A stretch of 64,000 nucleotides of DNA, from positions 126,565-190,564 of the forward strand of contig JBBHKE010003570.1 in assembly GCA_037447655.1 (NCBI GenBank), given 5' to 3'. Each line of letters starts with the position of its first letter. Positions within the stretch are counted from its first letter, which is position 1. Origin of the DNA: Zygnema cylindricum. Taxonomy: Eukaryota; Streptophyta; Zygnematophyceae; Zygnematales; Zygnemataceae. Shown here piece after piece: positions 1,996 through 50,158 of the stretch. The position numbers and the translations under genes were made by a program. A model generated the notes under the pieces. The model worked only from the letters and a program-made list of their open reading frames with translations, did not search any database and was not told the DNA's origin.

Positions 1996-1999
1996 AGTT

Positions 2000-4322: not shown

Positions 4323-4326
<4 letters not shown>

Positions 4327-4795: not shown

Positions 4796-4799
4796 CTTA

Positions 4800-25569: not shown

Positions 25570-26766
25570 TGTCAAGCTCATGTGCTTCACAGGCACCCCT
25601 TTTATCTTACCAAGGATTCCTGAGCCTTTTTCCTCTGTACGATCATTAAAGTACGGGGAAAGGAGCGCACTCAGCCGGACCAGATCCTTTTATTTTCTTA
25701 ACTGAGCGGAACGCACTTTATTTCGCGCCTAACGGAGGCCGGACGACAAAGTTACTCCGTTCCAAAGATTACCATACTGTTACATGCTACCGGTTGCCAA
25801 CTGTCCCATTGGGGGCTACATTGTGGAACGCCACGTAACTTTTGGGATAGTCTTGTAGATTTTGCTGTTGGCTATCAGTAGGACGTTAGTTCAAGTCCAC
25901 CAGCCGGGTAGAGCATTTATTAAAGTAAGTCAAAGTTGGGCGTTTCACGTCAATTTAGAACTTTGTTGCTCAGGATTATGTCATAGAAAAACCCGTGGCT
26001 TCTAATCTAGCCGAAGATAGTCGCCTAAATTTTTGCCTTGAGTGTAGTACAACCTGTTTTGTCTTATGTCCGTACGATAACAATTCCTGGCCGATTATTG
26101 GCTCCTGGTATTGCTTTGACTTTGGTACTATCGGTAGGACAAACTTGGCTTGTATAAGGCACTTGGGGCCGAGGGAGACAGGTTGTTGTTTCAGTACTGT
26201 CTCTTGAGAAAAACCCTAGAAATTCAAGCAAACTTTCTTGTGGAGAAATTTTGTTTTGCATGTGACTGTGACCCTATTGCCATCTTGGTTTACATCCGTC
26301 CTTTGTGGAAATCGTAGTCCGGTTGGGTGGTTGGCACCGTCTTTCCTGTTTTGGGCGGTTTGGGGACTGGTGTTTGTTGGATACCAAGAAGGGTCTTGCC
26401 GGTTCCGGGTCGCGGAAACCGAGGAGTTTAGGAGGCCTTACCTGTTCCGAGGTTTTCAGGGGGAGATTTTGTCTCCTTTTGGTTGTCCACGTTACGTTTT
26501 GAGGGTAGGTTGAGCTCGCTTGCTATTATTCCACATTCTAACTTTATTTCTCTATTTTTCTAAGGGCAAGGTGATATTGTTAAATCTGAGACATCATTTT
26601 TATATTTTTATCCTTTCATTTTTCTGGGTGGAAGCATCTGGGTTCTCTCTTTGGTAGTCCTTATTGGGGCTCTGGTTGGGTTTCTTCCTGGGTCGATTAC
26701 TAGAATCTTTTGTACCAGAATAGTGGATTTTGAGAGGATTTTTGTTAAGCTTCCAACAGATAGTCA
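25570..26766 (+). repeat. 5' LTR of gypsy G, right end missing
   Basis: This matches the first 1197 bp of the 3' LTR (48644-49840). The last 267 bp of the full LTR, ending CTTGACA, and a recognisable primer-binding site are absent here. The break lies at a shared GTCAC.AAA word, suggesting a microhomology deletion. Frames inside it (for example 26238-26513) are not genes. Confidence 0.85.
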
Positions 26767-28583
26767 CAAAACTGAAACAACCACCTGTCTCTTTAGGTTA
26801 AAGAGGATAGGTGCTCAGGGCGGAGTACATTTATTAGGGGATTTAGATCTTCTTCTACAGTCAGCTATGGGGGGAGGAGAAGTCTAGGATAAGGATCTTC
26901 CGGGTGTCAGATCAGACAAGCAGGAGAGGCAGGAAGCGGTGGCCTAGGAGGAAGAGTCACTGGTGCCCGAATGAGCACCCCCCTTTGGCTCACCTGTACA
27001 CATAGAGCGTTTTCTTAAGGGAGAGATGCCCCCGGAGGTTGCGGTCGACACTCCTCCTACGCACCCAGAGGGGAGACTTTCTCCTCCACCTCCACCTGTC
27101 TTTTCTCCCGAGGATTTCCCAACGTTGTCCGAGTCAATCAGAGCTAGGGCTTCGGAGAAGGCGGAGAGGCCGCCCTTATCCCCTAAAAGCCGTAGAAAGG
27201 GGTTGGCCCACAAGGAAGCTGTCCTGGTCACCTTCCCGAGATCGCTCGCTATACCCGATCTAAGGCACCGATAGCAGAAATGTACATGGATCCTAAGATC
27301 CTGACCGATCCTAACCGGCCAGGTCGCAAAGAAATCTTAGCCCTTCATGATCTCCATGAGTTGAAGGTTAAAAAAGAGTTGGTGCAGCGGGTAGCCAGGT
27401 TAGATCGAGCCAGAGTGGTACGCCCAGTGGGAGGTGTAGTGGAGATACTCAGCAATTCATCCGAGATTGGCTCCTCAACCTCCGTACCGGAGCAACAGGG
27501 AGGACCATCAACTTCCTACCAGCAACCCACCCCATCTCAGGACATCGCAACCAGCCGGACGGCTCACGGCGGGCCGGTCCCTCGGACACGGGCCGGGGAA
27601 GGGACCAGCAAGCGAGGGTTACCCGAGCCAAAGAAGGGGTACAGGTTCGATCATCGAGACGGCAAGTGCAGGTTCGCTCCCCGACCTAAAGCGGAACCGT
27701 TCTTCCCTTCCGATTCCACCTCTCCGAGCTCAAAGTCTCCTTCTACTCCGGCGGTTTGACCATCAGAGGGGTTGTGGCGTTCTAGACCCACCGATCCCGA
27801 GGTACCGGGTTTCGGGATTGCGGATCTCTCAAGGGTGGTGAGCAGTACACAAAAACTGGTTGATATCCTGCGATCCCAGAGTCAGGCTACGGCGGGGGCT
27901 AGACCCGTCACCATCGATTGGGAAGCTCTCTAAGAAGAGAGGAAGAGGGCCCTTGAACAGGAATTGCTCCTCAAAAGGGAGGCTAGACGAATATCAGGAG
28001 GGATCCTTAGTGGACAGGTAGCTCCTCCTAGAGAGACAGGTCCCTCTGCTGAGAGACAACCTACAGTACAGACAACCCCTACGGAGATGCAAGCTCCTGG
28101 GATTTCCTCAGAACTTAGACCGGAGTCTCCTCTTCAGCGGGAAGGGGGGTAACAATAGGACCTAACAAACAGGGGATGGGTGCAAATTTACCGGATAACG
28201 TTACAGCCGCCTCCACTGAGCGTCCTACTGTTGTCTCAATGGTTCGGTCTTCAACTGCGGAGGCCGTGGTATTATTACAACCCGACTAGAGACAACACAT
28301 CTCCCTTGGGCTTTCCACTCCTCCTCCATCTCCACCTCAGGCATCCTCTCCTTGGCCTTCTGTTTCTCCGGCCGCTGCAGTCCGTGGGTCACCGGGACCA
28401 CCTGTCTTACCCTACAAGTACGACGTTCCTGCCTACTCTCCTCCTCACCGACGTTCTCCCGATTCCAGCGAAGGAACTCCTCCACCAGAAACCTCTAGAA
28501 GGCGTACACGGAGACATACACCTTTCCCTCGTAGTCCTCAGTCATCTCCATCACCTTCTCCACCAATCCCTCAAGGACCACCG
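26767..28583 (+). pseudogene. Gypsy G leader and proline/serine-rich N-terminal gag-like region
   Basis: Open stretches in changing frames (27026-27274, 27280-27759, 27964-28152) encode proline-, serine- and arginine-rich protein. The 27280 stretch has a charged helical segment (ALHDLHELKVKKELVQRVAR) followed by low-complexity sequence. I recognise no domain. Position between LTR and gag suggests an extended gag N-terminus broken by frameshifts. Confidence 0.5.
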
Positions 28584-31211
28584 GTGATTAAACCTATTCT
28601 CCACATTCCCTCGGTGGAAACAGTTCTTTGGGAGGAACAGGCCTCTCCTGGGTATAGAGGAGCAGGACTTCGGGCAACTTTTCCCAAGCTGATAAGCTCC
28701 TCGTTTCCCAAGGGCCAACTCAAGGGAGATACATGTCATCTCACTATCCCACCAGTAATCGGAACTTCCTCAGTGGGGGGGAGGGCCATCTCTCGTCAGG
28801 CAGCTCCTTCTACCGGAGAAGGAGGCGGCCCCGAGCCAGACGATTCAGATCTAGGGGTAATTTCACCGGTTCATTTTGTCAACCCAACCGGACCATCCTC
28901 TTCTTAGTTCACCAACCTTGCAGAGGAGGAAAAAGAAATGGGGGACGCAAGGATCTTTACAGGAGATAGCTCGGGAATCGCTTTCTCTGATTTTGAATTG
29001 TTGTGGAAGTCGTTCACCCAATCTAAAATCAACAAATACAAGGGCGGAGCCATTCTGAATGACTTCGAGACCACACTTTTCCCCATGAGTGTGAACTATG
29101 TTGCCGGTGGAGCTTTGGCAGACTACAAGGAGCGACAACCTCTTCTGATGGCTCCCAACATCAAAATTTCAGACACTATCCTTGATGAGGCAGTCTTGCA
29201 TGCGGAAGCAGACTTGGTTGCCGCTGCAGCCGCTCATGTCACCGCCCTCTTCATAGAGGACATAAAATTTCAGGCACAAGGACGAGCCTATGTCGCTCAG
29301 CTTCAGGCCATCCAGGAAGCGAAGGTAGCCACTCGGATGGTTGCAGACCCAACCCTTTGTACCACTCTTTTGAATGCCTGGAGACTCCTTTACACCAAGA
29401 GGAATAAATCTGCTATCAAGGAATTCACGGAATTCCGTTGCCAAAAGAGTGAAACACCCTAGACTCTTTTTAACAGATTGTCCAGCCTATGTCAAAACAC
29501 CAAACTCTCAACCATTGATCTTCCGGCCATGGCAACCAAATATTTCATCGCCGTCCGAAATTCGTTCGGACCGACAGGGCAGGCAACCCTCGATAATTGG
29601 ATTGCGGGACAGGCCATCCAGGATGTCAATCTAACCGCCAAGGAAATCTCTCTGGCCGCAATGAAGCTTTATGATCACTTTGTCCACCGAGAGGCCCAGG
29701 AAAAAGCGGTAACCGGAAAAACCCGAGGGAACTTTGCAAGATTTGCCGGAGAAATGCCTCCCGAAAATGAAAAGTCGGCCTAACTCTTAGCCTTGCAGAA
29801 GCTCAAGGGGAAACAGGTGGTGGATAGCGGATCCGAACCTGCCATGGGTGTCGATGATCGTGTATTCCTCTATAATTGTTTAAACTGTCAACAAACAGGT
29901 CATGGATGGAAGCGATGCCCCGGAAGCTCAAACCGGAATTAGCTCTTAGGTAGAACGAATGGGAGAAGGAGAGAGCTGAAAGGACAAAGTGGCAGCAAGA
30001 AAGGAAGCAAAGAGGAGGGTCAGACGATAAAACACCGATTAACAAAGACAATTACCGGCCGACGCCAGGATCTGAGACTGCAAAGATGTCGCAAGCCCTT
30101 GCGACAGATAAAACCTCCAAAATTTGATGACGCGCAAATCTCCAATGAATTGAGGGGCGAATATACTACCGAGGGCCCCAAGTGTGAGGCTTGCGGTTTC
30201 ATGGGTCATAAGGAAGGGGAGTGCTTCCGAAAGAATGGAGTTCCTAAAGAGATGATGCAATATGCACTGTTCATCGGAGAAGGTGAAACTGCCGTGAATC
30301 CTCTCTCGCTGCAGCTTCTTTACCCTTGGGGACGCCGCACCCCGGAGAACCTAGAACGACAACCAACAGGTCAAGCCCGATTAACCCTGTGGGTTATCAT
30401 CCAACAACAGAGCCAGCAAATGACAGCCATGGCTGCAAAATTAGCAGTGCTGCGATTAGGATCGCCCTCTAGGACTCTCGCTCTGACGGCCGCCCAGAAA
30501 CTCCACCGGAGAAAACAGGAATTACTACAGAAGTTGGCGGAGCTTGAACAAGAAACCACAGCGGGCGAAGACGATGACGAGGTGATGGGGTGGGACATGG
30601 AACCTCCTAAGGCACATCATGCACAGACTTTCTTTTTTGGAGCCTGGAATGTCGGTGTGGGGGACAATCGTAGGCAGCTCCGCAACTCAACCTTGGCGCA
30701 GCGAAGGGACCGGCAAAAGCTCGCTCCACGAGACCACATCAGGAACGCTACTGGACCTCTCTCCTTCACCCCCAGCGCCGTCATCCTGAACGACAACATA
30801 GGTCTCGGGATAAAATCTACAAACCCACCTCCACCAGCCGGAAAGAAACTGCCTCCTGGATTTGAAAATTACATGACAACTAGAACAAAGAAGATGGAGG
30901 AACAAGCAAAGAAGGAAGAGACGCATGACAACCAAGACTGGTTCGAAAAATATTTGGCAGAACGCCCGGAGGATAACACGCCAGAAACGCCGCCAGCGCC
31001 AAAATCCGAACAAGAAAGTGAGGAAGCAGGGAAGGGGGAGAAGGAAAATCAACCGGTGGAACCAACAGATTCCTCCATTTCATCGCCAAAAATTCAACCT
31101 CCTTCCTCCAAACCAGCAGTGATGTTAGTAAGGCATCTAATGCCCTACGCTCTCACTCACGTGAAAACACTAGCCTCTTCTCATAACTTACCGGAGGAAG
31201 TTGTCATCTAG
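28584..31211 (+). pseudogene. Gypsy G gag with two zinc knuckles, broken
   Basis: The gag polyprotein packages the element RNA. One frame runs from 28584 through 31211 and continues into protease, interrupted by stops at 28905, 29460, 29781, about 29940 and 31209. The alanine- and charge-rich region 28938-29783 is in capsid position, though I do not recognise a capsid fold by motif. Two CCHC knuckles (C-x2-C-x4-H-x4-C) follow: CLNCQQTGHGWKRC at 29877-29918 and CEACGFMGHKEGEC at 30183-30224. After them comes a glutamine-rich, possibly coiled-coil stretch, then a Pro/Glu-rich linker. Two knuckles point to nucleic-acid binding. Confidence 0.75.
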
Positions 31212-31615
31212 GCCCTCGGAGAGGAAATCCATTCAGGAGGGGAGAAACACCGGGCCGATCAGGCCACATCCGTTTTTTGGTTAGTAGACCCAAAGACCCC
31301 TATGATGGATAGGGACTACAAAACGTTATCTGTGGCGCTAATTCTCAACCGGACGGGGAATTTCAAACTCAACGGATACGGCGGGTATCAAGACGCAGTT
31401 ATCGATACAGGAGCACTCCCAAATCTAATCACCACATCGGCTCTGCAGCAGATACTTGAAGAACTCCGACCGGAAATCTTCCCCAGTGACATCTGCCTAA
31501 GTACTATTAGCAGTGGGAGCCAACCGGTACACGGAATAATCAAAGCTATGTTAATAGAGTTCGCCAACAACGTAGGTCAAAAGGTCCAAATTCAGCTTCC
31601 CTTCCTGGTGGTGGA

Positions 31616-32289
31616 TGTTGTAATGAGGCAGCTGGTGTCACAGAAGAAGTAGAAGAATCACCAGCAGTTGCCATAATAATAACACAGGCACACAGAAGGA
31701 AACTCTCACTATAAACCCGAAGGAAACTCTCACGATAAACCCGCAGACTACTGACTTCACAATGAATTCTCAATCAAACCAGACACACCCTAGGTCTGCA
31801 AATTTGCCAAAGTAAAGACAATAACATAAAGAACCCACATGCAGAATTTCAAACAGTTCTGCCAAAAGATCACAATGATCTTTATAATTGATAAACCCCA
31901 AAAACTGCTTCACAGTTTTTGCATACAAGGAATTCCTGCCTACAAGAGTAATCTAAGTCCTATATATATAAGTGAGTCAACTAGAACCCTAAACCCTAAC
32001 AGACGGAAATATTTACATCAAACTTAAATCTGACTGCCTCCAAAATGATAATTACCTGAAATGACTGCGCAGTCAATATTTCACTTCCAAAATGACGGCT
32101 GACTTTGTCCGCCGTCTCACAGACTGACACGTGTCCTTGGAGTGTACCAAGCCTGTGTACTCCCTTCGGAGTTACACACCACACTAACACCTGTCTACTA
32201 TAATTCAGTCTGTACACAAAAGTGACTAAGTTCTTAATCTCTTTCTCACACACTAGATATAGAGAGTACTAGAGGTTTCCAAAACAACA
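31616..32289 (-). repeat. Left (3') LTR of copia E
   Basis: Begins TGTTGTAATGAGG and ends AAACAACA. It is followed by CTCCCCTAAACC, the complement of the polypurine tract. Confidence 0.97.
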
Positions 32290-32312
32290 CTCCCCTAAAC
32301 CTTTAGACTCTC

Positions 32313-35300
32313 TCAGCCACCAAGTCCACATGCCTTTCTACAAAACTGCAATTTAGGTGCAGGTAGAGGCTTAGTCATCATATCTGCTACCATCTTCTCA
32401 TCCGGCAGATAACTGAGTTTTAAAATTCTGTTCATCACCTTCTCTCTTACAAAGTGCAGCTTGATATCAATGTGCTTGCTTTTGAAGTGATGACTTGGGT
32501 TAGATGCAATCGCTATAGCTGCCTGGTTGTCACACCACACTATTTGAGGTCCATATTGCATGAAATGAAGTTCTTGAAGGAGAGACTTTACCCAAAGTAA
32601 CTCCTTGACAGCTGAGCTTGCTGCCATGTATTCAGCCTCCATTGTAGACTGAGCAGTGACTTTTTGAAGCTTGCTGCTCCAGCAGCATGTTCCACTTCCA
32701 ATCTTCAAAATGAATCCGGTGGTGGAGCGGCGGCTTGGCATGTCTTCGTAGCTCGCATCGCTCTAAGTCTGAATTTTGACTTCATCTCCACCGAGAGCAA
32801 GTCGCAGATTCCTTGTCCCTGCAAGGTATCGAAGAACCCTCTTTGCTGCCTCCCAATCCGATCTCCTTGGATTTTGTAAACTCCGACTTAAAGCACCAAC
32901 TGCTGCCGCAATATCCAGCCGTGTGCAGTTCATGAAGTAGATTAGGCTCCTGACAATCTGACGGTATGGTATGGCAGCCATAGAATCTGCCTCCCCTGAT
33001 TCCAAGATGTCATCAAAAATGACTCCTCCATCGGCCTCTATGCCTTCTACCTTTTGCTTAAATTCCATGGGAGTGGCACTTCCCTTTGCCTCTGCCATGC
33101 CGAACTTTTCAAGCATATTCCCAATCGCTTCTCGCTGCGTTAGATAAATTATTTTTCTATCTCTATCCCTTTCTACTTGAATTCCAAGGATATACTTTGC
33201 CTCTCCTAAATTTTTCATCTCAAATCTAGAATTCAAGGCTGCCTTTATTTTATTAATCTCATTTAATGACTTACTTAGTAGCAACAAATCATCTACATAC
33301 ACCGCAATGTAAATAATTCCATCTTCCCCTTCCATAACATAAACTGAGTGATCTGAACTAATCCTTACAAAACCGAGACTAGTTAGAAACTCATCTAGTT
33401 TCAGATTCCACTGACGTGGAGCCTGCTTCAAACCGTACAAAGACTTCAACAGTTTACACACCAGATTTTCTTTTCCGGTCTTTGCATACATTTCAGGCTG
33501 CCTCATATAAATCACTTCCTCTAAGTCTCCATGCAAGAAAGCCGTCTTAACATCCATCTGATGTAATTCCATATCCTCAATGGCTGCTAAAGACAACAAA
33601 ATTATAATAGTCGGAAACCGGACAACCGGAGAGAAAGTCTCTTCATAATCAATTCCCTCCTTTTGATTATAGCCTTTTGCAACAAGCCGAGCTTTATATC
33701 TTTCAATAGAATTATCCGGATTCAACTTAACTTTAAATACCCACTTACAGCCGATTGCCTTTCGATCCGGCGGAAGCTCAACAAGCTCCCAAGTTTGAGC
33801 CTCCATTATCGATCTCATTTCGTCGTTCACTGCGGAAATCCATTGATCCTTTTCCGGAGCTGAAAAAGCCTCCTGTATGGTGACCGGTTCCATCGTACTG
33901 GCAGAAAATAGAGCAAGCTCCACCCCTTCACCTCGCAGCCTGCCACTTTGCCTTCTTCCCCCCGGAAAATCTGAGGCTAAAATTGTTGGAGCCATACGTG
34001 TCCGTTGAGGAGGAGGAGGAGGAGGAGGAGGAGGAGGAGGAGGAGGAGGAGGAGGAGGAGGAGGAGGAGGAGGAGGAGGAGGATGTCCAGTATGCTGGAC
34101 AGGCTGAACATCCGGATTGTCCGAAGTGGGAGTTGATCCTCCATCCATTGAGGAAGAAATTGTAGAAGAAGAAAGAGGATGATTTTCAAAAATTACATAT
34201 TCTTGAATTTTGGCATGTTTTTCAAAATCTGTCATGCCAAACACATCAACCGATTGACTCTCTTCCTTAACCTGAATATTTCTAGCAACTTGAAGAGTTT
34301 TTCTATCGGTATTGTATACTCTATAGCCAATTGACTCATCATCATATCCCATAAATATCCCGGGAACAGATTTTGGACTAAGCTTGGAAATAGGACGATT
34401 ATCTAAAATAAAACATTTACTACCAAAGACCCGAAAGTGACTAACATTAGGTTTCTTTCTAGTCCACACTTCATAGGGTGTTTTCCCTTTGACCGCTCTA
34501 GTTTCTATTCTATTCCTAATATACGAAGCACAAGAGAAAGCTTCACCCCAAAATTTAAAATCTATCCCTTTATCTAACATCATAGATTTTGCACTTTCCG
34601 TTAAAGTTCGATTAAGTCTTTCAGAAACTCCGTTTTGCTCTGGAGTATAGGGAACTGTAAACTGACGAGAGATGCCATTTTCTTTCAAATAATCTGAAAA
34701 TGCATTGGAAATATATTCACCTCCGTTGTCGGACCGAAGGGAAAGAATCGGCTTTTTGTGAAGTTTTTCCGCCCAAACCCGAAAATGCTTGAAGTGATTA
34801 AACACTTCACTCTTCTCCTTCATAAAGTAAACTTTGCTATATCTTGAGAAATCATCGGTAAAAGTGACCAAAAATCGGCTGCCACTAAGTGAAGGAACTT
34901 TTGACGGTCCCCACACATCAGAATGGATTATTTGCAGCAAATCCGTGGCCCTGTTATCCGCTGCCTGAGGTAGGGGCAGCTTATGAAGCTTTCCCAAAGC
35001 ACATCCATCACAAACATGAGAATCTTTTTGTCCTAATTTGACACCTTCTATCATATTTAGTTTTACCATTTTATCAAGCCTTTCATTATGAACATGACCG
35101 AGTCTCTTATGCCACAAAACATTTTCCAGAAGGACACTGGAGTATGCAAAGTCAATTTTATTAGCTAAGTCCATCCGGTATAACAAATTTGGGCCTCGAG
35201 TTCCTACTAAGGCTATTCTTCCATCTTTGCTTACTACCTTTTTTCCATTTTTCTGCAAAATTTCAAATCCCTTCATTTCTGCTACTGAAGTGGAAAACAA

Positions 35301-38807: not shown

Positions 38808-39842
38808 ATGGAATTTGATATCTCCCACTGGGGTAGACCCTCGGAGGCCTGGGCAGCGGTTAAACCCGGAAAGATGGATTGGACCTTAGGGGAACAGTTG
38901 GACCCTCAGCAAAAGGCCCTGCTCTCCGACGTGTTGGGGAAGAACAAACACGTGTTCTCCTGGTCAGATACCGACGTAGACATCTACAAAGGAACCCCTT
39001 TTCGAATAGATTTAATAAACGAGACGTCTACTGTTTGGCAGAAGCAATACCCTCTCAGTTTCAAAGTAAAGGAGTTCATCACGGCAAAGGTACAAACTTT
39101 GGTAGAAGCAGGATTGGTTCAGGAAAGTACCGGACTCCATGGATTTGCGTCTCCAACCGTTCTCCCACCCAAGAAGGACTCATTTGGGAAAACGGTAGAC
39201 TTTCGGATGTGTGGAGATTACCGGATGTTTAACACGACAACTGTACCTGACCGATACCCAATGCCTACCCCGGAGGAGATTTTTGACTCGCTAGCCGGGG
39301 CCACCATTTACTCCACCCTAGATATGAAGAATGGGTTCCACCAGATCGCGATGGAGCCAAAGCACCGGAAAAGGACAACTTTTTGGGCAAGGTCCAGGTT
39401 GTATGAATGGCTCTACATGCCATTCGGGCTGAAGAATGCGCCAGCCAAATACCAACGTGCCATGGACGAGGCACTCCGAGGGATTGACTGGGCATGGTGC
39501 TATATCGACGATGTTATTATCTTCTCGAAGACCTTCGAGGAACACCTAGAGCACATACAGATTGTACTCCGAGCTCTCCAAGCAGCGGGCTTGAAATGTC
39601 ACTCAGGTAAGGGAATTTTTGGGGTGCAGAAAACTATATACCTGGGACACAAAGTTACACCCGGGACAGTGGGTCCCCATATGGTCAAAGTTGCAGCCCT
39701 TGATGCCCTTCCCCCTCCTCACGACGTCTATACACTCCGCACATTTTTAGGCCTAGCTAACTATTATCGGAGATTCATCCCTGAATTTAGCAGCCACGCT
39801 CAGCCTCTGAACCAGTTGCTGCGGAAAGACCAAGAGTGGTAG
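38808..39842 (+). pseudogene. Gypsy G reverse transcriptase
   Basis: Ty3/gypsy RT that would copy the element RNA into DNA. Motifs in order: TVLPPKKDSFGKTVDFRMCG, DYRMFNTTTVPDRYPMPTPE, STLDMKNGFHQIAM, YMPFGLKNAPAKYQRAMD, the catalytic YIDDVIIFS at 39501-39524, then GHKVTPGTV and FLGLANYYRRFIPEF. The stretch is uninterrupted for 344 codons and ends in TAG at 39840, with homology continuing into RNase H in the same frame. The frame joins the methyltransferase upstream. All catalytic aspartates seen are present, so only flanking stops disable it. Confidence 0.95.
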
Positions 39843-40679
39843 TGGACGGAGGAGCAACAGATTGCCTTCCAGTTCCTCAAGGATTCCCTGAAGCAACACC
39901 CAATGCTCCGAATGCCTGATCACCAAAGACCCTTCCTCCTTTACACTGATTGGAGCCGGTTTGGATTGGGAGATGTTTTAGCCCAACTGAATGATGCTGG
40001 TGCCGAATATGTGGAAGCTTAAGCCAGTAGGATTAATAACCAAGCGGCGGGGAATTACATCAGCTATCACGGGGAATTACTGGCGGCGGTATGGGCCATC
40101 CAACACTTCAGACCATACCTATACGGAGTTCATTTCACTCTCATCACAGATCACCAACCTCTCAAGTGGATTATGGAGAACAGCAAGCTCACTGGCAAGC
40201 TCGCCAGGTGGGTGTTAATACTGCAGGAATATGACTTCGACATAATCCACCGGGCCGGAGAGATTCATGGGAATAGCGACGGACTTAGCAGAAATTCTGA
40301 CCCTTCCACTAGAGATTCCACCGGGGCCCGCCATGATGAGGATCATGAAATCAGTTTAGGACTCATTCGAGCTTCCTCTGCTTTTATTTGGCTTCCTCAA
40401 TCTGGGGGGGAAATGTCAACTTTCTCTGTAGACGTGGAGGGGCAGGCGCCGATAGGGGCCGGACGGAAAGATATTTGGAACGATCTAGAGGCTCTCCAAT
40501 TTGTCCAACAAGGTTACCCTCTTCCGCATTTGTCAGAAGTGCAGTTATCTCGGGTGCAAACACAAATGGCAGCATACGAGTGGGAAAGGGGCATCTTAAT
40601 CCGGAAGTGGGCTGATGGGACGAGGAAAGTGGTTCCTCCCCCGGCTGATAGGGAGACTCTTATTTTTAACCTTCACCAG
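39843..40679 (+). pseudogene. Gypsy G RNase H and start of linker to integrase
   Basis: This domain would degrade RNA in RNA-DNA hybrids. Motifs are FLLYTDWSRFGLGDVLAQL (first aspartate), YHGELLAAVWAIQHFRPYLYG (glutamate) and LITDHQPLKWIM (aspartate), followed by the tether-like ARWVLILQEYDFDIIHRAG and GNSDGLSR. One stop lies after YVEA at about 40019-40021. The frame ends at 40679, where copia A is inserted after ACCAG. Confidence 0.9.
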
Positions 40680-41718
40680 TGAAATTCTGTGTCCTCCATT
40701 GGACCACAGAATACAAGAAGCCTCTAGATAGTATTTAACTAGCCCACTTTAAGCCACAAACACTGCCGCCCAAAAAGGCAAACTGACAATTTGACTGCAC
40801 CCCTGTGTAGCCTGGACTCCCCTGAGTCCGTAGCAAAAAGAATCACTGAAAACGGCCAACCAGCCGATAAGTTATGAGGCAGTAAAAATGCCAATTTGTA
40901 AAACTCTCAAAGGGAGAGGTGACCACCTACCAAAATTTTCTAAGTCCTGATTCTCTCTAATAACACCTATCTACTGAAGTACGGACCAATCAGATTACTG
41001 TATCGTACACGATAGTACTACTGGCGATGTACCTTTTGTAGGGCCTATGTACGACAAGGCTATTAAGTGGACGCGTGTCCACTTTTTACTCGTCCGTACG
41101 TTCCTCGGAATTCCTATGACCGAATGTCATCTCTCCACGTGGCTCCAGGTCATGCCATGTCACAAAACGCGAAGGTGACCACTCCGGGATTTCGGCGATG
41201 ATGTGCGCCGTTGGATTTTACGTGAAATGCAATCTTAGCCGTAATAAATACTTGCGCGACATTTGTTCCGATGTCGAAATAAAATGTGAGGTATCCGTTT
41301 TGAATTAGGGTCGTACGACGTACTTTAGAAAACTGAATCTATGTACGTCGTATACAGTTCTAGTTAAATGGATTTAATTCTTTCTAACTAGATATATATC
41401 TATCACATACCATATCACTTAGCATTGGTCCTAGTCTTTTAGGATAAGGCTGACCGCTACCGGTCAACTTGACGAGCCGTAGGTATCGGGATCAAATCTC
41501 TGGTCCATCAAGTATATTTTTAGTAACCTACTAAAAATAGCTGTCTGTTGAACTAAGGCAGCCATGGATCAACATCTCTCTCTTACCTTCAGTGACTACA
41601 ACAAGTATGGGGGCTAGAGAGCGGAGGTGGATGCAGGCTGTCCGTCCTTTTTATTTTTTCCTTTTATAAAAACATATTTAAACCTAGAAAATACTCTAGA
41701 AATCTATAAATTTCAACA
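40680..41718 (-). repeat. Left (3') LTR of copia A
   Basis: Begins TGAAATTCTGTG and ends AATTTCAACA, followed by the polypurine complement CTCCCCTTATTTTC. It contains CCACGTGGC near 41136 and a tRNA-like block at about 41448-41520. Confidence 0.95.
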
Positions 41719-41739
41719 CTCCCCTTATTTTCTAGTCTA

Positions 41740-42112
41740 ATTTTAATTTTTCTTTCAATCCGCATTTTTCCCGACAATATTTTAGTTTAGGAGAGGGCAC
41801 AGGTTTGGTCATCATGTCAGCCACCATTTCTTCATCAGGTCTATACACAAGATTTACAATTTTATTTTCAATTTTTTCTCTTACTAAGCTTAATCTTATG
41901 TCTATATGTTTTGCTTTGAAATGGTGTTTTGGATTGGCTGCAATTGCAATTGCAGCTTGATTATCTCAAAAGATTTAATGCACTCCCTCCTTCATAAATC
42001 CCAGTTCTTGTAACAATGATTTCACCCACATTAGTTCTTTTACAGCAGAACAAGACGCCATATACTCAGCCTCCATAGTAGACTGAGCAACCACCTTTTG
42101 TTGCTTACAGCT
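41740..42112 (-). pseudogene. Copia A RNase H C-terminal part
   Basis: Continues the gag-pol frame past a stop at 42113: STMEAEYMASCSAVKELMWV, then DNQAAIAIAAN and HMDIRLSLVREKIEN. Two further stops (TAA and TGA) lie near 41968-41980 in the KIFCDNQ region. Confidence 0.85.
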
Positions 42113-45100
42113 TCAAGAGCAAGCACCTTCCCCCACATACAAAACATATCCAGAAGTGCATCTTCTCATAGGTGCATCCCCATAACTGGTATCACTCCAA
42201 GTGGTGATATCAGTGTGCTCCCCTCCCAAATGCAACCATAAATCTCTGGTTCCAACCAGATATCTCATGACTCTCTTGGCTGCCTCCCAGTCTCTTTTCC
42301 TAGGATCATTAAGACTCCTACTGAGTACTCCAACTGCTCCTGCTATTTCCGGCCTGGTACAATTCATAAAATAGATTAAGCTTCCTACGACCTGTCTATA
42401 AGGAATAGACTTCATGAACTCTCTCTCCTCTGGACTCATCTGATCGTCTAAGATCATCACTCCTCCTTCTACACTCCCATCACTTACTTTTTTCAAGTCG
42501 ATGGGAGTGGTACAACTGTTAGCATTTTCCATCTGGAATTTCTCAAGCATATTACCTATTGCTTTTTTCTGAGTAAGTCTGATAATCTTCTTCCCTCTAT
42601 CTCTCTCCATTTGGATCCCCAAAATATATTTTGCCTCCCCTAAATCCTTCATATCAAACTTGCCCCTAAGATCTTTCTTTAGCTTATTGATATTCTCCAA
42701 AGACTTACTTAACACAAGCAAATCATCCACATAAATTGCAATAAAAATGACACCATTCTCATCTTCAAACATATAGATAGAATGGCCAGAGCTGATACGG
42801 ATATATCCCAAATTTGTGAGAAACTCATCAAGTTTCTTATTCCACTGTCGGGGAGCCTGCTTCAGTCCGTATAAAGACTTTATGAGCCTGCAGACTTTGC
42901 TCTCTTCTCTTTCTTCCACGAACCCCTCGGGTTGTCTCATGAAAATTTCTTCCTCTAACTCACCATTTAGAAAAACAGTCTTAATGTCCATCTGGTGTAT
43001 TTCCATGTCTTCCGCTGCTGCCAAACTGAGGAGAATCCTTACCGATGGGAACCGAACAACTGGAGCAAAGGTCTCCTCATAGTCAATCCCCACTTTTTGG
43101 GTGAACCCTTTCGCTACCAATCGAGCCTTATACCTCTCAATTGTATTATCTGGGTTCAGTTTCAGTTTAAATACCCATTTACATCCAATAGGTTTTTTAT
43201 CTGGAGGACAATCTGCTAGTTCCCAAGTATTTGCTTCCATAATAGAAGCCATCTCATCATTTATGGCTCTAATCCATCTTTCTTTCTCTGGACTTTTCAC
43301 TGCCTCCAAGTAAGACTGAGGCTCATCAGGGTGAGATAGCTTAGTTACCTTATGAGCAGCTTGTTTTTCCTTTATCGTTTTGGTGCTCCTCCTTCCTCCT
43401 TCAAACTCCGAAGCTGGAATGGATGGAAGTTTTGGATTTCTTCTCACTGTCTCATCGGCTCCCCTGTCCATGGAAACCGGTTCTTGTCCCGCTTCTCCTA
43501 TCTCCTCGAAGTCCATAGGAGTATGTGAGGTTTTCGGTGAGTCTCCTGTATCTTGGATCTCCCCTGAATTTGTAATCACGGTTTCACTCATGTCCCTTTC
43601 GTGAACGACCGAGTTCTCCTCACTTTCGAACTCAACTATGATCCTTATCTTCTTTGTATATTTAAAAGGGTCAAATGACTTCCCTTCATCCATGACAACT
43701 AAGTGTTTGACCAGAATGATATCTTTCTTTGCTAAGTCATAGACTCTATATCCCTTAACATCATCATCATATCCCACAAAGTATCCAGGTTTTCCCTTAG
43801 CATCTAGTTTCCAGTTTTTCCTATCCGTGTCAAGACTGTAAACTTGGCTACCAAATACTTTAAGGTGTGAAATATCTGGTTTCCTTCCAACCCATCTCTC
43901 ATAAGGTGTCACTCCCTTTACAGCTGAGGTAAGGACTCTATTCTTAATGTATTTGGCACAGTTCATTGCTTCTGCCCAAAATCTCTTTCCTATTTTCTTA
44001 TCTGCCAACATACTGCATGCACTATCTCCTATTGTTCGATTCAACCTCTCAGCTACCCCATTTTGTTCCGGGTTGTATGGTACAGTTTTCTGGTGCTCCA
44101 CTCCCTCATCTCTCAGATATTCCTCAAACTGGTTAGAGGTATATTCCCCACCATTATCACTCCTTATCCTCTTAATGGGTGTTTCATGCAACTTTTCACT
44201 CAAAGCTTTATATTCTTTGAAGTAAGTTGATGCTTCAGACTTTGTTTTCAGAAAGTAGACTCTTGAGTATCTAGACCAGTCATCAGTTATTGTCATCATA
44301 AACCTTTTTCCTCCAACCGAAGGTACTTTTGCAGGTCCCCAAATATCTGTGTGGACCAAATCTAACACTTTCTCACCTCTATATGTGGCGGCTTTGGGAA
44401 AGGGAAGTCTATGAGCCTTACCTTGAGCACAACCACTACAATCATCCATCATTTCATTATCCCCAAACTGAATGCCATCTACTACCCCAAGCTTTTTCAT
44501 TTCCCTTAACCTATCAAAATGCACATGCCCCAACCGCTTATGCCAAATCATCACCTTAGGAACACCAACATAGTAAGCATTCTTCTTTTCATTACTCAGG
44601 TTAAGCCTAAACATTCCTTGGCTACCCTTATCTGCTGTGAAGTAAACTTCATCCCCATAATTAGCTGTAAAGACTCCTTTTCTGTTGAAGGTATCGAATT
44701 CTTTGTCATCTAACACAGACGTAGAGACAAGATTTTTACTCAGCTGAGGAGTGTAAAGTACATCTAAGAATGTAAGTATAGAAGTCTTACCCTCCACTAA
44801 GACTTTCAGATCTACTGATCCCACTAGATCTGTAGTAACCACTCTCCCATCCCCATACACTATCTCTACAGTAGGAATCTTTCTCAACTTAGTGAAGAGT
44901 TCTTTATCACGACACATATGCATGGATGCACCTGAGTCGATGATCCATCCTTCCTGTGGAGCTTCCCGGATTGCTCCAAGGGCACACTTCTGCCTCCGAG
45001 GAATCTCCTTCTCCTCCAAACTCTCGTCAAGAAGGAGCTCCCCATCCTCCTCAGAGGACTCATCCTCGGTTTCTCCTGGCACTTTTGTAACCACAAGTGC

Positions 45101-45592
45101 CTTTTTCTTCCCTCCGGAAGAACCCCTTCCACGGTTCTCTTGGAGCCTCAGCTCTGATAGCTTGACACAATCTGCAATAAAGTGTCCCGGCTTTTTGCAA
45201 TAATGACAAAGACCCTTTGGGGGCCTTTGTCCCCCAGAATGATCTCTTTCCCCTCTATAAGATTTCTTCGGGTCCTTCCCCCATCGGTCCCCTCCTGCTG
45301 CTAGAGCTTGAATGCTCTTTCTTCCTCTCCTAATCTCCATTGTGTTTTCCTGCACAAGTATCATCCTGACTACCGTGTTCCATTTCCATGAACTATCAGG
45401 CATTCCCTGTACTCGGTACACTATGTTTTCGAACTCATCTGGTAATTTCATGATAAGGGTGTTAACTTTCATTTTCATTGTACCTATCCACCCGACACTT
45501 TCCATTTCCATATACAAACAAGAAAGATCATTACAATAATCTAACATCTTTCCTCCTTTGTAAGTGTAACTCACTAGCTTTTGCTCAGCCAA
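42113..45592 (-). CDS. Copia A pol with C-terminal gag, 1159 codons open
   Basis: The longest open frame in the window. It begins inside gag and continues through the zinc knuckle CHYCKKPGHFIADC; protease IIDSGASMHMC; integrase zinc region HKRLGHVHFDRL...CSGCAQGKAH; core DIWGPAKVP, RSDNGGEYTS and NPEQNGVAERLNR; RT with KWVFKLKLNPDNTIERYKAR, LYGLKQAPRQWN and YVDD (42722-42733); and the start of RNase H (TWSDTSYGD). It is bounded by a TAG at 45593 and a stop at 42113, so it is not a complete polyprotein. The upstream stop replaces a CAG seen in copia D. Enzymatic motifs look intact. Confidence 0.92.
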   Translation of the reverse strand: MAEQKLVSYTYKGGKMLDYCNDLSCLYMEMESVGWIGTMKMKVNTLIMKLPDEFENIVYRVQGMPDSSWKWNTVVRMILVQENTMEIRRGRKSIQALAAGGDRWGKDPKKSYRGERDHSGGQRPPKGLCHYCKKPGHFIADCVKLSELRLQENRGRGSSGGKKKALVVTKVPGETEDESSEEDGELLLDESLEEKEIPRRQKCALGAIREAPQEGWIIDSGASMHMCRDKELFTKLRKIPTVEIVYGDGRVVTTDLVGSVDLKVLVEGKTSILTFLDVLYTPQLSKNLVSTSVLDDKEFDTFNRKGVFTANYGDEVYFTADKGSQGMFRLNLSNEKKNAYYVGVPKVMIWHKRLGHVHFDRLREMKKLGVVDGIQFGDNEMMDDCSGCAQGKAHRLPFPKAATYRGEKVLDLVHTDIWGPAKVPSVGGKRFMMTITDDWSRYSRVYFLKTKSEASTYFKEYKALSEKLHETPIKRIRSDNGGEYTSNQFEEYLRDEGVEHQKTVPYNPEQNGVAERLNRTIGDSACSMLADKKIGKRFWAEAMNCAKYIKNRVLTSAVKGVTPYERWVGRKPDISHLKVFGSQVYSLDTDRKNWKLDAKGKPGYFVGYDDDVKGYRVYDLAKKDIILVKHLVVMDEGKSFDPFKYTKKIRIIVEFESEENSVVHERDMSETVITNSGEIQDTGDSPKTSHTPMDFEEIGEAGQEPVSMDRGADETVRRNPKLPSIPASEFEGGRRSTKTIKEKQAAHKVTKLSHPDEPQSYLEAVKSPEKERWIRAINDEMASIMEANTWELADCPPDKKPIGCKWVFKLKLNPDNTIERYKARLVAKGFTQKVGIDYEETFAPVVRFPSVRILLSLAAAEDMEIHQMDIKTVFLNGELEEEIFMRQPEGFVEEREESKVCRLIKSLYGLKQAPRQWNKKLDEFLTNLGYIRISSGHSIYMFEDENGVIFIAIYVDDLLVLSKSLENINKLKKDLRGKFDMKDLGEAKYILGIQMERDRGKKIIRLTQKKAIGNMLEKFQMENANSCTTPIDLKKVSDGSVEGGVMILDDQMSPEEREFMKSIPYRQVVGSLIYFMNCTRPEIAGAVGVLSRSLNDPRKRDWEAAKRVMRYLVGTRDLWLHLGGEHTDITTWSDTSYGDAPMRRCTSGYVLYVGEGACS

Positions 45593-46061
45593 CTAGAGCT
45601 CCTGAATAGTTCCAGCTCTATAAATCTCCACCAAACTCACCCACAACTCCTCGGCCTTGTAAATGTGAAGATGAGGAGTGGCCAAACCTTGAGTGAGGTG
45701 CCTCAGAATGAAGTTCTTGGCAGCCATGTTTACATCCTCCCACATTTGAGTATCGTTCTCCACGGTCTTCACGGTTGCCGCTCCCGATACTGTGGCAATA
45801 GGAGTGAGGAATGTCTCATTCCCTTTCCCCTTTTCGGACACACTGCTGTCCCCATCATCTGCCTCCTCCGCCGAGGCAGCCGTTGTTGCAGGAAACCTTA
45901 CTCCCCCAAATCCTGGTGGAGTTCTCGAAGGTGGACGTTTCACTTGTCCACTGACGATACCCCAGTATCATTTTTCACACAAAGCTCTCATCATCATGGC
46001 TTCCCAATAGAAGAACCCAGATCCATTGAAGGTGGGCACCCTAGAGGGTGGGCCCATAACC
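45593..46061 (-). pseudogene. Copia A gag N-terminal part, broken
   Basis: The frame enters from the LTR through the PBS as VMGPPSRVPTFNGSG, then has a TGA at about 45967 where copia B keeps CGA (EKRYWG). It continues through NMAAKNFILRHLTQGLATPH to a TAG at 45593-45595 that matches a CAG in copia D. Both stops are C-to-T changes. Confidence 0.85.
46047..46061 (-). other. Primer-binding site of copia A
   Basis: Minus strand GGTTATGGGCCCACC directly after the 5' LTR, complementary to the anticodon arm of plant initiator tRNA-Met (recalled as ...GGTGGGCCCATAACC...). Confidence 0.85.
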
Positions 46062-47101
46062 TGAAATTATGTGTCCTCCATTGGACCACAAAATACAGGA
46101 AGCCTCTAGATAGTATTTAACTAGCCCACTTTAAGCCACAAACACTGCTGCCCAAGAAGGCAAACTGACAATTTGACTGCACCCCTGTATAGCCTGGACT
46201 CCCTTGAGTCCGTAGCTAAAAGAATCACTAAAAACGGCCAACCAGCCGATAAGTTATGAGGCATTAAAAATGTCAATTTGTACAAACTCTCAAAGGGAGA
46301 GGTGACTACCTACCAAAATTTTCTAAGTCCTGATTCTCTCTAATAACTCCTATCTACTGAAGTACGGACCAATCAGATTACTGTATCGTACACGAAAGTA
46401 CTAATGGCGATGTACCTTTTGTACGGCCTATGTACGACAAGGCTATTAAGTGGACGCGTGTCCACTTTTCACTCGTCCGTACGTTCCTCGGAATTCCTAT
46501 GACCGAATGTCATCTCTCCACGTGGCTCCAGGTCATGCCACGTCACAAAACGCCAAGGTGACCACTCCAGGATTTTGGCGATGATGTGCGCCGTTGGATT
46601 TTACGTGAAATGCAATATTAGCCGTAATAAATACTTGCGCAACATTTGTTCCGATGTCGAAATAAAATGCGAGGTATCCGTTTTGAATTAGCGTCGTACG
46701 ACGTACTTTATAAAACTGAATCTATGTACGTTGTATACAGTTCTAGTTAAATGGATTTAATTCTTTCTAACAATATATATATCTATCACATACCATATCA
46801 CTTAGCATTGGTTCTAGTCTTTTAGGATAAGGCTGACCGCTACCGATCAACTTGACGAACCGTAGGTACCGGGATCAAATCTGTGGTCCGTGAAGTATAT
46901 TTTTAGTAACCTACTAAAAATAGCTGTCCGTTGAACTAAAGCAACCATGGATCAACCTCTCTCTCTTACCTTCAGTGACTACAACAAGTATGGGGGCTAG
47001 AGAGCGGAGGTGGATGTAGGCTATCCGTCCTTTTTCCTTTTTCCTTTTATAAAAACATATTTAAACCTAGAAAATACTCTAGAAATCTATAAATTTCAAC
47101 A
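46062..47101 (-). repeat. Right (5') LTR of copia A
   Basis: Begins TGAAATTATGTG and ends AATTTCAACA. A minus-strand TATAAA (TTTATA at 46707-46712) in a context shared with the D LTR is a likely promoter. The gag-start ATG lies about 20 nt from the LTR end, but this copy has a TAA four codons on. Confidence 0.95.
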
Positions 47102-47106
47102 ACCAG

Positions 47107-48177
47107 CAGTGTGGCCATTTTGGGCAGAAACGGACCACCTCCTTCGTCGCAGGATCGTACTGGTGGCACGGGTTGCGGACCCAAGTCAATCGGATTGTGC
47201 AGACGTGTTCCTCTTGTGACCGAGTCAAAGCAGCTTTTGACAAAAAGGGAGGTGCTCAGCTTCATTCCCTTCCCATCAGGGGAATGTTTTATCGGTGGTC
47301 TTTGGATCTGCTGGGTCCTCTCCCCACTAGCAGACGAGGGAACCGCTTTGTATTGGTAATGATAGAGCATTTTTCCAAGTGGATCAAATTGGTGGTCTTA
47401 CCTAGGAAGGAGTCCAAAGCGATTGCGGGCGCATTCTTGCAGAGAGTGCTTTCCCAATTTAGGGCCTCAGCTGAAGTTCTGACCGACCAGGGCTCCGAAT
47501 TTGCGGGAGAATTCCCCAACTTGTGCCTCATCGACCACGAGCTGACCAGCCGAGACCACCCATAAGCCGACGGTTTGGCCGAAAGGTGCGTACGTTCACT
47601 CCGTAAATATGCTGTGGAAGAGGATCTAGGAGAGTGGGATAGAAGGGTGCCTTGGATCGCCATGGGGTACCGATTCAGCCGGCAAGCATCCCTCCTCTCT
47701 TACAGCCCATATTTCATTTTGTTCGGACGGCATCCCATCCTCCCCGGCGCTGCCTCGGCCCAAGCAGTGGTCCTTCGGGAGATGGACGGCAAGGGAACAG
47801 TTGGAAAATTGATTGCCGACAGGGCCAAGGTATTTCACCGGGAAATGCCTCTGGCCATGGGGAATTTACAAGCAGCTCAGCACCGAGATCAACTCCGGTA
47901 TTCGCAACGCCGGAGCGGGAATTTTGTCCCGCGACAACGGCGATTTTTGCTCGGGGATTTCGTGTATCAGATGCAACAGAAAAAGGACACTTTGGACATT
48001 TCAGCGGGGAGGGTGATTTTGAAAGTAGTGGAAGTCTCCAATAAGGGGGTCTTGACACTTGAAGGGAAGGATGGACGGAGGATCAAGGAAAATCAGATCA
48101 ATATGGCTCCTTGTCACCTCCGGGGATTGGAAGACGAACCTAATTTTCACCTTACCTATTTTGCTGATCCCCCTTTG
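47107..48177 (+). pseudogene. Gypsy G integrase
   Basis: This domain would insert the element DNA into chromosomes. Removing copia A with one ACCAG joins RNase H in frame to HHCC-like sequence (HFGQKRT...YWWHGLRTQVNRIVQTCSSCDRVK). The core has DLLGPLPTS (first Asp), LTDQGSEFAGEF (second Asp) and ADGLAERCVRSLR, where the glutamate follows a TAA at 47563-47565. The C-terminal module reads FLLGDFVYQMQQKKD...RIKENQINMAPCHL. No chromodomain is seen; a PHD-like finger follows. Confidence 0.9.
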
Positions 48178-48321
48178 TGTTCCTCCGAATGCCTCTCATC
48201 TTCCTCCCAGAATTCTGTAGCAGTTTGTGATCGATGCGACCAGTGTTGGCATCAATCTTGTCTCCCCTCCTCTAGGGACCCTCGTCCTAAACCCTCTGCT
48301 CTCTAGTTCTGCGGGAAGTGC
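48178..48321 (+). pseudogene. PHD-like zinc finger at the integrase C-terminus
   Basis: Cysteines and histidine follow the C4HC3 spacing of PHD fingers: C-x3-C, then 11 residues, CDRC, x4 with Trp before His (CDQCWH), x2-C (HQSC), then LPSS and finally FCGKC. A TAG at 48304-48306 sits where PHD fingers have a conserved Trp two residues before the sixth Cys, consistent with TGG to TAG. PHD fingers usually read the histone H3 tail, so this may guide integration. The first pair is x3 rather than the usual x2. It is in frame with integrase. Confidence 0.75.
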
Positions 48322-48375
48322 GAATTGGGGGGGTAATTATTCAAAAGTCTTAGTCCAAGTTGACTAAGAGGTGGA

Positions 48376-48643
48376 GAAATCAAGGACCCGGCTCCACCTC
48401 TAAGGATTCCCTCCTTTCCCCCAACCAGGAGGGGGAAGGAGAGGGGGAGGGGATATCTTTTCGCCCTCCCCATGCACTCATCCCCACCTTTGCATGCATG
48501 CCCACAGGAACAAGGCGGGCATCATTAGGCACAAGCATGGTTGTGGGGAGCATTCCCATTCTGGGGAAGGTTGTTTGCAGGACCCCAATGCCAATTACCC
48601 GGGCAGTGGGCCCTCCTCTGATGTTTCCGGCACGCTCGACAGC
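48376..48643 (+). repeat. Extra copy of the gypsy G LTR tail before the 3' LTR
   Basis: 268 bp nearly identical to 49842-50107, ending CTCGACA-GC directly against TGTCAAG of the 3' LTR. It includes the purine run aggagggggaaggagagggg. The arrangement (LTR end, 2 bp, LTR start) resembles a two-LTR junction with most of the first LTR deleted. Confidence 0.8.
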
Positions 48644-50107
48644 TGTCAAGCTCATGTGCTTCACAGGCACCCCTTTTATCTTACCAAGGATTCCCGGGCC
48701 TTTTTCCTCTGTACGGTCATTAAAGTACGGGGAAAGGAGCGCACTCAGCCGGACCAGATCCTTCTATTTTCTTAACTGAACGGAACGCACTTTATTTCGC
48801 GACTAACGGAGGCCGGACGACAAATTTACTCCGTTCCAAAGATTACCATCCTGTTACATGTTACCAGTTGCCAACTGTCCCATTGGGGGCTACATTGTGG
48901 AACGCCATGTAACTTTTGGGATAGTCTTGTAGATTTTGCTGTTGGCTATCAGTAGGACGTTAGTTCAGGTCCACCAGCCGGGTAGAGCATTTATTAAAGT
49001 AAGTCAAAGTTGGGCGTTTCACGTCAATTTAGAACTTTGTTGCTCAGGATTATGTCATAGAAAAACCCGTGGCTTCTAATCTAGCCGAAGATAGTCGCCT
49101 AAATTTTTGCCCTGAGTGAAGTACAACATGTTTTGTCTTATGTCCGTACGATAACAATTCCTGGCCGATTATTGGCTCCTGGTATTGTTTTGACTTTGGT
49201 ACTATCGGTAGGACAAACTTGGCTTGTATAAGGCACTTGGGGCCGAGGGAGACAAGTTGCTGTTTCAGTACTGTCTCATGAGAAAAACCCTAGAAATTCC
49301 AGCAAACTTTCTTGTGGAGAACTTTTGTTTTGCATGTGGTTGTGACCCTATTGCCATCTTGGTTTGCATCTGTCCTTTGTGGAAATCGTAGTCTGGTTGG
49401 GTGGTTGGCACCATCTTTCCTGTTTTGGGCGGTTTGGGGACTGGTGTTTGTTGGAAACCAAGAAGGGTCTTGCCGGTTCCGGGTCGCGGAAACCGAGTAG
49501 TTAAGGAGGTCTTACCTGTTTCGGGGTTTTCAGGGGGAGATTTCTTCTCCTTTTGGTTGCCAACGTCACGTTTTGAGGGTAGGTTGAGCTCGCTTGCTAT
49601 TATTCCACATTTTAACTTTATTTCTCTATTTTTCAAAAGGCAAGGTGATATTGTTAATTCTGAGACAACATTTTTATATTTCTATCCATTCATTTTTCTG
49701 AGTAGAAGCATCTGGGTTCTCTCTTTGGTAGTCATTTTTGGGGCTCTGGTTGGGTTTCTTCCGGGGTCGATTACCAGAATCTTTTGTACCAAAATAGTGG
49801 ATTTTGAGAGGATTTTTGTTAGGCTTCCAACAGATTGTCACTAAATCAAGGACCTGGCTCCACCTCTCGGGATTCCCTCCTTTCCCCTGTCCAGGAGGGG
49901 GAAGGAGAGGGGGAGGGGATATCTTTTCGCCCTCCCCAAGCACTCATCCCCACCTTTACATGCATGCCCACAGGAACAAGGCGGGCATCATTGGGCACAA
50001 GCATGGTTGTGGGGAGCATGCGTATTCTGGGGAAGGTTGTTTGCAGGACCCCAATACCAATTACTTGGGCAGTGGGCCTTCCTCTGATGTTTCCGGCACA
50101 CTTGACA
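48644..50107 (+). repeat. 3' LTR of gypsy G, full length
   Basis: Begins TGTCAAG and ends CTTGACA, 1464 bp, followed by GTTC and copia C sequence. Its first 1197 bp match the 5' LTR; its last 267 bp match 48376-48643. Confidence 0.8.
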
Positions 50108-50158
50108 GTTCCACGGCTGACTCCTCCTCGGTCTGATTTGTAAGTGCAAGATCATCAT
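50108..50158 (-). pseudogene. 51-bp fragment of copia C between G and D
   Basis: Matches the complement of copia D near 53690-53745, joining the C fragments at 25569 and 56569. It shows that G and D landed only about 50 bp apart in C. Confidence 0.85.

Follow-up and report, generated by a model that had tools for sequence, protein, structure and literature searches.

A decayed Ty3/gypsy element of Zygnema cylindricum with a predicted DNMT3-type cytosine methyltransferase in Pol, a PHD finger behind the integrase and split repeats

Structure of the element

The window analysed here is a 64,000-nucleotide stretch of Zygnema cylindricum DNA (assembly GCA_037447655.1, 352.8 Mb in 2,689 contigs; contig JBBHKE010003570.1, our C2675:126565-190564). 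Positions 25570-50107 on the forward strand hold a Ty3/gypsy element that is interrupted by two nested Copia elements (Table 1). The Pol region carries a methyltransferase (MT) domain between the protease and the reverse transcriptase (RT), and a divergent PHD finger lies behind the integrase. We regard the identity of the element as nearly certain. It starts with TGTCAAG at 25570 and finishes with CTTGACA at 50107, and these TG...CA ends coincide exactly with the limits proposed in an earlier note on this DNA, made from the letters alone. The same note had called the element Ty3/gypsy, as the matches to RVT_1, RT_RNaseH, Integrase_H2C2 and rve bear out. The empty site with one GTTC is found in a related (paralogous) Copia stretch in the same window, on the reverse strand of 53691-53780.

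Two CCHC zinc-knuckle motifs (29877-29918 and 30183-30224) and the protease motif DTGA (31392-31427) were read by eye in the Gag and protease region, whose open stretches gave no Pfam match. Eight in-frame stops fall within 37140-40679, and the window copy is dead.

Table 1. Features of the Ty3/gypsy element in the window (positions count from the first letter of the window)
Feature	Position	Strand	Evidence
4-bp target-site duplication GTTC, left copy	25566-25569	.	Uninterrupted site with single GTTC in related Copia stretch
Long repeat A1, element 5' end, starts TGTCAAG	25570-26771	+	95.4% identity to 48643-49845
Gag and protease region	28908-31615	+	Motifs read by eye
Nested Copia element, not part of the parent	31616-37139	-	Long terminal repeats (LTRs) 99.1% identical
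Predicted DNMT3-type cytosine-C5 MT domain	37569-38624	+	Pfam, motifs, nearest PDB chains
RT	38802-39842	+	RVT_1 E 4.9e-27; YIDD at 39501
RNase H	40023-40682	+	RT_RNaseH E 1.2e-21
Second nested Copia element, not part of the parent	40680-47101	-	LTRs 95.7% identical
DDE integrase, H2C2 zinc binding and rve core	47083-47592	+	Integrase_H2C2 E 2.3e-11, rve E 4.8e-9
Divergent PHD finger ending Pol	48190-48333	+	PF00628 E 0.0014, 19.1 bits, below cut-off 24
Short repeat B1, purine-rich tract before it	48377-48642	+	93.2% identity to 49843-50108
Long repeat A2	48643-49845	+	B1-A2 junction CGACA-GC-TGTCAAG
Short repeat B2, element 3' end, finishing CTTGACA	49843-50107	+	Repeat comparison
4-bp target-site duplication GTTC, right copy	50108-50111	.	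Matches left copy

The methyltransferase domain

Motifs I-X of the MT domain follow one another in canonical order across 37596-38525. As the earlier note had claimed, they share a frame (frame 3 of the window) with DTGA before them and YIDD of the RT after them. The note had allowed that the translated region might fail to match the Pfam family DNA_methylase; it did match, over 37569-37964 (E 5.9e-10, 39.5 bits against a cut-off of 22). In PDB, the chains nearest to this 131-residue piece (best E 4.7e-6) are those of DNMT3C, DNMT3A and DNMT3B, with HhaI behind them. Motif IV lies in it as GGWPCQGYS (37863-37904), with PCQ where DNMT3A has PCN. After an internal TAG at 37962, the next stop-free piece (37965-38624) holds motif VI (CVLENV, 37995-38027), the RxR of motif VIII (GSRAHRVRAYW, 38109-38150), the motif IX region (38304) and motif X (38406-38525); alone it gave no match in Pfam or PDB.

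The full MT domain of a relative, L024, has DNMT3A as its nearest PDB chain (E 4e-13). The L024 structure model (pLDDT 84.5, 12 sequences) has its best fold matches in DNMT3B and DNMT3A (E 2.1e-17, target TM 0.82), and all of the best 50 among 194 PDB fold matches with E <= 0.001 are of the DNMT3 family. Because the motif order is unpermuted the domain is not of the DRM type. Judged from sequence and predicted fold, the MT is of the DNMT3 type, in agreement with the earlier note.

Copies in the same genome

Further copies were sought by a DNA search with a 3336-base MT-RT query whose final bases belong to the nested Copia; 40 of 4982 candidates were scored, giving 50 rows. At least 21 further places match query bases 1-3111 at 86-93% identity. 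The order MT-RT-RNase H-integrase was present in all 11 window-family copies that were fetched (L010-L020), mostly across more than one frame, and nine of these also gave a PHD match behind the integrase. The genome contains at least 123 PF00145 (DNA_methylase) matches out of 782 candidates, element membership having been checked for some only. One locus, G000:C2179:14534-16359, is 97% identical to the window copy with an equal PF00145 score and is perhaps an allele of the same insertion.

In C1344, a copy of another subfamily that is among the PF00145 matches, one open frame of 2395 residues encodes MT (E 2e-11), RT, RNase H, integrase and PHD (E 1.5e-9). Matches of this frame to zinc knuckle and protease fall under the Pfam cut-offs. 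The possibility raised in the earlier note, that a fragment of a host DNMT gene was inserted once into a single gypsy copy, would fit the broken state of the window copy and nothing else. Against the further MT-RT matches, the constant domain order, the open subfamily and the same order in Klebsormidium nitens (see below), it is practically excluded.

The charophyte reading in that note also fits. GRAS genes are present in the genome (27 exon-level matches, obtained among 28 candidates and spread over 12 contigs), which agrees with a streptophyte host and points to Zygnematophyceae or land plants, and a K. nitens protein has the same domain order. A search for the Rubisco large chain found no match, the plastid probably being absent from the assembly.

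Split repeats and target duplications

In the window copy, in C1344 and in the copy C262 the repeats are arranged as A1 ... B1-A2-B2 rather than as two equal LTRs. This is the layout of DIRS/PAT elements. In C1344 the A repeats are identical at 931 of 931 positions and the B repeats are 99.6% identical over 243 columns, and a G-rich purine tract stands right before B1. Duplications of 4 bp flank all three copies in which both ends were seen: GTTC in the window, TTAG at C262 and TTGG at C1344. DIRS elements are not known to make target duplications. A DIRS-type element moved by a tyrosine recombinase, for which the shared repeat layout would speak, is therefore extremely unlikely: the integrase has H2C2 and rve domains, the duplications occur in every copy with both ends seen, and no tyrosine recombinase family appeared in Pfam scans of the window 3' pieces (E up to 1) or of the open C1344 frame (E up to 0.1). 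These elements combine DIRS-like split repeats with TG...CA ends, target duplications of 4 bp and an integrase of the DDE type.

The 2-base spacer at the B-A junction was GC in five of the six copies seen and AA in the sixth. C2415 (L045, C2415:81800-86800) is a tandem of the form int-B-A-int, where int stands for the internal region, and C1825 (L038) is probably arranged likewise. Tandem neighbours share one A repeat, as recombination between repeats would give. Such tandem arrangements could suggest a plain LTR (A) with a chance 3' duplication of B as the source of the split repeats. We consider this very unlikely, as two subfamilies whose sequences differ share A ... B-A-B, TG...CA ends and a target duplication outside B2, and as the Fig. 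4 legend of PMC5890265 reports the layout for K. nitens as well. At the right end of C262, a fragment of a second MT element (L022 5229-7217), about 67% similar, abuts the copy.

Relatives and two layouts of Pol

Three protein searches, in one of which 7977 candidates were scored and the best 120 of 1013 hits taken, and domain mapping of 169 proteins (one from this genome) placed relatives in K. nitens, Closterium, Chlamydomonas, Pleodorina, Tetrabaena, Monoraphidium and Haematococcus. Two layouts were seen. In type I the MT precedes the RT (21 proteins with MT-RT-RNase H-integrase, 12 of them with PHD; these include K. nitens KFL_009030040 and Closterium). In type II it lies between RNase H and integrase (98 proteins, 90 with PHD; Haematococcus, Monoraphidium, Pleodorina, Tetrabaena and Chlamydomonas among them). 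The window element resembles the polyproteins of Haematococcus lacustris (QJQ45_013313) and Chlamydomonas reinhardtii (CHLRE_09g398141v5) in its RT/integrase clade, homologous MT and terminal PHD. It differs from these chlorophyte proteins in the place of the MT, and the catalytic residues are lost in the Chlamydomonas/Pleodorina clade. Another 29 proteins have an RT without an MT match: seven of them carry PHD, and the other 22 are gypsies from an arachnid, two land plants and Nannochloris.

Catalytic motifs were counted in rows whose MT match was longer than 200 residues, the Closterium MT (a split match) and matches of 200 residues or fewer being left out of these counts and of the MT trees. 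Among 26 type I rows the motif IV cysteine is kept in 25 (one has a gap), and the motif VI glutamate and RxR in all 26. Motif IV begins with E (ECQ-like) in 16 and with P in nine of these rows, and with E in 55 of 93 type II rows. The type II cysteine is kept in 84 of 93 rows and replaced by another residue in eight. Those eight (P0164, P0122, P0156 and five others, with Chlamydomonas, Pleodorina and one Tetrabaena row among them) form exactly one clade in the tree of RT and integrase.

Trees were built from sets of 57, 121, 61 (thinned from those) and 55 rows (thinned; bootstrap not settled). The 57-, 121- and 61-row trees were quick ones with support from the approximate likelihood-ratio test (SH-aLRT) only. 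The row named win_L013 is another copy of the window family. The 121-row tree of RT and integrase places the MT-bearing gypsies and the seven MT-less PHD gypsies in one clade (SH-aLRT 100) against five other gypsies, taken from the best 120 of 1013 hits. Type I rows, which in the 121- and 61-row trees include P0086 and P0123 with weak or partial MT matches, are basal, and K. nitens (type I) falls within a clade otherwise of type II. Holding type I together was rejected by the approximately unbiased test (p-AU 3.5e-6, 61 rows). The MT trees were rooted on a 192-residue DNMT3A piece, a long branch; type II lies on one side of a branch (100/100 with 55 rows, 99 with 57), and type I is poorly resolved with K. 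nitens placed elsewhere. Green-algal host DNMT3 genes were sought for rooting and not found.

By these alignments, chlorophytes and streptophytes share a single clade of MT-bearing gypsies in which the MT has one of two places in Pol. The trees suggest one capture of the MT and one move within Pol, contrary to the independent acquisition in the Klebsormidium lineage inferred in the available portions of PMC5890265. Two captures of related host DNMT3 genes, type I before the RT and type II after RNase H, would also put the type II MTs on one side of a branch and at another place in Pol; the trees, moreover, are without any green-algal host DNMT3, and those of MT and of RT and integrase disagree on K. 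nitens. We nevertheless think two captures rather unlikely, given the full support for the RT and integrase clade, the rejection of a united type I, and the position of K. nitens among type II elements, as one capture followed by one move predicts.

Selection and decay

Between the copies L006 and L024, neither with stops, the ratio of nonsynonymous to synonymous substitution (Ka/Ks) was 0.13 for the MT and 0.10 for the RT. Two stop-free L008 pairs gave 0.23 and 0.25 for the MT, above the published value of < 0.2 for the MT of KnitGypsy-Dnmt3 of K. nitens (PMC5890265, available portions), and L002/L006 and L004/L023, with one stop in one copy of each pair, gave 0.12 and 0.10 for the MT. These ratios show purifying selection on the MT between open copies.

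The window was compared with 11 copies for C/T transitions in the coding stretch, all codon positions together and with copy pairs that are non-independent. Such changes affected 486 of 2948 CHG sites (16.5%), 286 of 2450 CG sites (11.7%) and 502 of 9446 CHH sites (5.3%). A similar excess was found for the A1/A2 pair pooled with the LTRs of the Copia at 40680 (CHG 19/146, CG 14/159, CHH 23/581; Fisher p 0.0002 and 0.02), a test made without the three remaining pairs. Two of these had no CHG or CG excess, the Copia at 50159 (CHG 2/71, CG 3/72, CHH 7/265) and the young Copia at 31616 (CHG 0/65, CG 0/21, CHH 2/177), and the short B1/B2 pair was mixed (CG 4/10, CHG 0/15, CHH 5/105). Decay in the order CHG > CG > CHH is that expected of plant-type CHG and CG methylation.

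The PHD finger

PHD matches number at least 150 in the genome, out of 984 candidates. The 123 MT and 150 PHD matches listed include 20 MT-PHD pairs that have the expected direction and a spacing of 1.5-8 kb, and in 16 of these the spacing is 3.9-4.1 kb. The controls gave no pair upstream and none on the other strand. At the 12 best PHD loci this integrase lies upstream in nine and downstream in one, and is absent from the 1.5-kb flank in two. In Zygnema cf. cylindricum SAG 698-1a a PHD count at least 9-fold larger and a Copia content of 29.8% of the genome are given in the available part of PMC9915684. The Copia-rich window and the abundance of PHD matches resemble that strain. If it is the host, its PHD excess may be transposon-borne; in genome annotation, the number of PHD 'regulators' can be overstated when many element copies carry a PHD finger.

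Comparison with described elements

KnitGypsy-Dnmt3 is presented in the available portions of de Mendoza et al. 2018 (PMC5890265) as a charophyte gypsy with a Dnmt3 in Pol. Of the features of this type, the Zygnema family shows a gypsy Pol, an unpermuted Dnmt3-type MT in the Pol frame, the K. nitens order, DIRS-like split repeats and purifying selection on the MT. KFL_009030040, presumably a copy of KnitGypsy-Dnmt3, shares the order protease-MT-RT-RNase H-integrase with the window element; its record is marked partial and ends soon after the integrase. The Zygnema element differs in its host, in the PHD behind the integrase and in the target duplications shown for it. The main text of PMC5890265 contains no word beginning PHD.

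SymbioDIRS-Dnmt3 and SymbioLINE-Dnmt of dinoflagellates likewise carry an MT within a retrotransposon, with split repeats in the DIRS form, but are tyrosine-recombinase or endonuclease elements, not gypsies (PMC5890265, available portions). PMC6338049 speaks in general terms of gypsy and DIRS elements that carry a methylase in green algae and charophytes, and PMC12344493 refers to the 2018 paper for DNMT3s in LTR and DIRS elements.

The fusion of a chromatin-reader domain behind the integrase is also known elsewhere. Chromoviruses are Ty3/gypsy elements with a chromodomain on the integrase; the window element has a PHD instead, an MT in Pol and split repeats. Among titles and the beginnings of abstracts, no literature on the PHD, the split repeats or further green-algal cases was recognised. 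The kind of element is already known; the PHD, the two layouts, the target duplications and the inactive clade were not met in the literature looked at.

Proposed mode of action

The reading we favour is that the window holds a decayed copy of a green-algal Ty3/gypsy element whose Pol carries a DNMT3-type MT and, behind the integrase, a PHD finger. The MT would be packaged with the RT in the particle and would methylate the new DNA of the element, most likely at CG, before or during integration. This rests by analogy on the place of the MT in Pol and on the CG methylation by SymbioDIRS-Dnmt3 shown in yeast (PMC5890265, available portions). The PHD finger would help to choose chromatin, and the host would later silence copies by CHG and CG methylation, as it does other transposons. 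From the purine tract in front of B1 it follows that U3 begins at B, and standard reverse transcription from that tract would yield B-A-int-B-A, unlike the genomic A-int-B-A-B. Closing this product into a circle and cutting it at the B-A junction would give the genomic form, so that integration would use DNA cut at B-A. As a whole, inferred steps included, we hold this account to be fairly probable. On its parts, we are evenly divided over whether the MT methylates the element's own DNA copies, and the circle step is doubtful.

Several results weigh against this reading. The circle step is read from the repeat geometry alone, and 11 further copies probed at guessed places gave both ends in none (C1177 among them showed its left end only, the right repeat being truncated). 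In the three pairs with both values the MT was a little less constrained than the RT (MT/RT Ka/Ks 0.12/0.08, 0.25/0.21 and 0.13/0.10), and between the window and decayed sister copies it was more clearly looser (0.40-0.84, RT 0.31-0.59). The transition excess was considered as a footprint of self-methylation and rejected: the nested Copia at 40680, which has no MT, shows it too, and the excess reads as host silencing rather than self-marking. The MT is also dispensable to this gypsy type, because one clade, that of Chlamydomonas and Pleodorina, has by its aligned residues kept the domain and lost the catalytic residues, and because seven PHD-bearing relatives have no MT match. Finally, the K. 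nitens MT showed no activity in yeast, an outcome that its authors regard as inconclusive (PMC5890265, available portions).

The inactive clade and the yeast result, together with the frequent ECQ for PCQ in motif IV, would also be expected if the MT had a role other than methylating element DNA, such as methylating RNA, binding nucleic acid or serving Pol as a structural linker. We judge such a role unlikely, since the 26 type I rows, apart from one gap, all keep cysteine, glutamate and RxR, the purifying selection between open copies is nearly as strong as on the RT, and the L024 model has a predicted DNMT3 fold.

A broader version of the favoured reading, for the whole green-algal gypsy clade, is that these elements would replicate unlike other Ty3/gypsy elements, that their DNA, made or kept as a circle, would be opened by the DDE integrase at the palindromic B-A junction (CGACA-GC-TGTC...), that the MT would mark it and the PHD read chromatin, and that the MT entered once before the RT, early in green plants, and later moved behind RNase H. 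We offer this speculatively and think it improbable in full.

Since transposons are a main target of cytosine methylation, an element with its own de novo MT tests whether self-methylation pays. A large clade of chlorophytes and streptophytes, with losses, a likely move in Pol and a catalytically dead branch, makes it a comparative system instead of a curiosity. The joint occurrence of split repeats, a DDE integrase and target duplications puts in question the textbook divide between LTR and DIRS replication. The element belongs to a known but under-described family, present in several green algae, of unexpectedly mixed build.

Neighbouring features of the window

A third Copia (50159-56568, LTRs 96% identical) begins some 50 bp past the right boundary of the MT element. 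On the left of the window, 101-5777 holds purine-rich (GA)n and related tandem repeats, with a 22-bp repeat at 4517-4794, and a hAT transposase dimerisation domain lies at 9481-9936 (E 4e-13).

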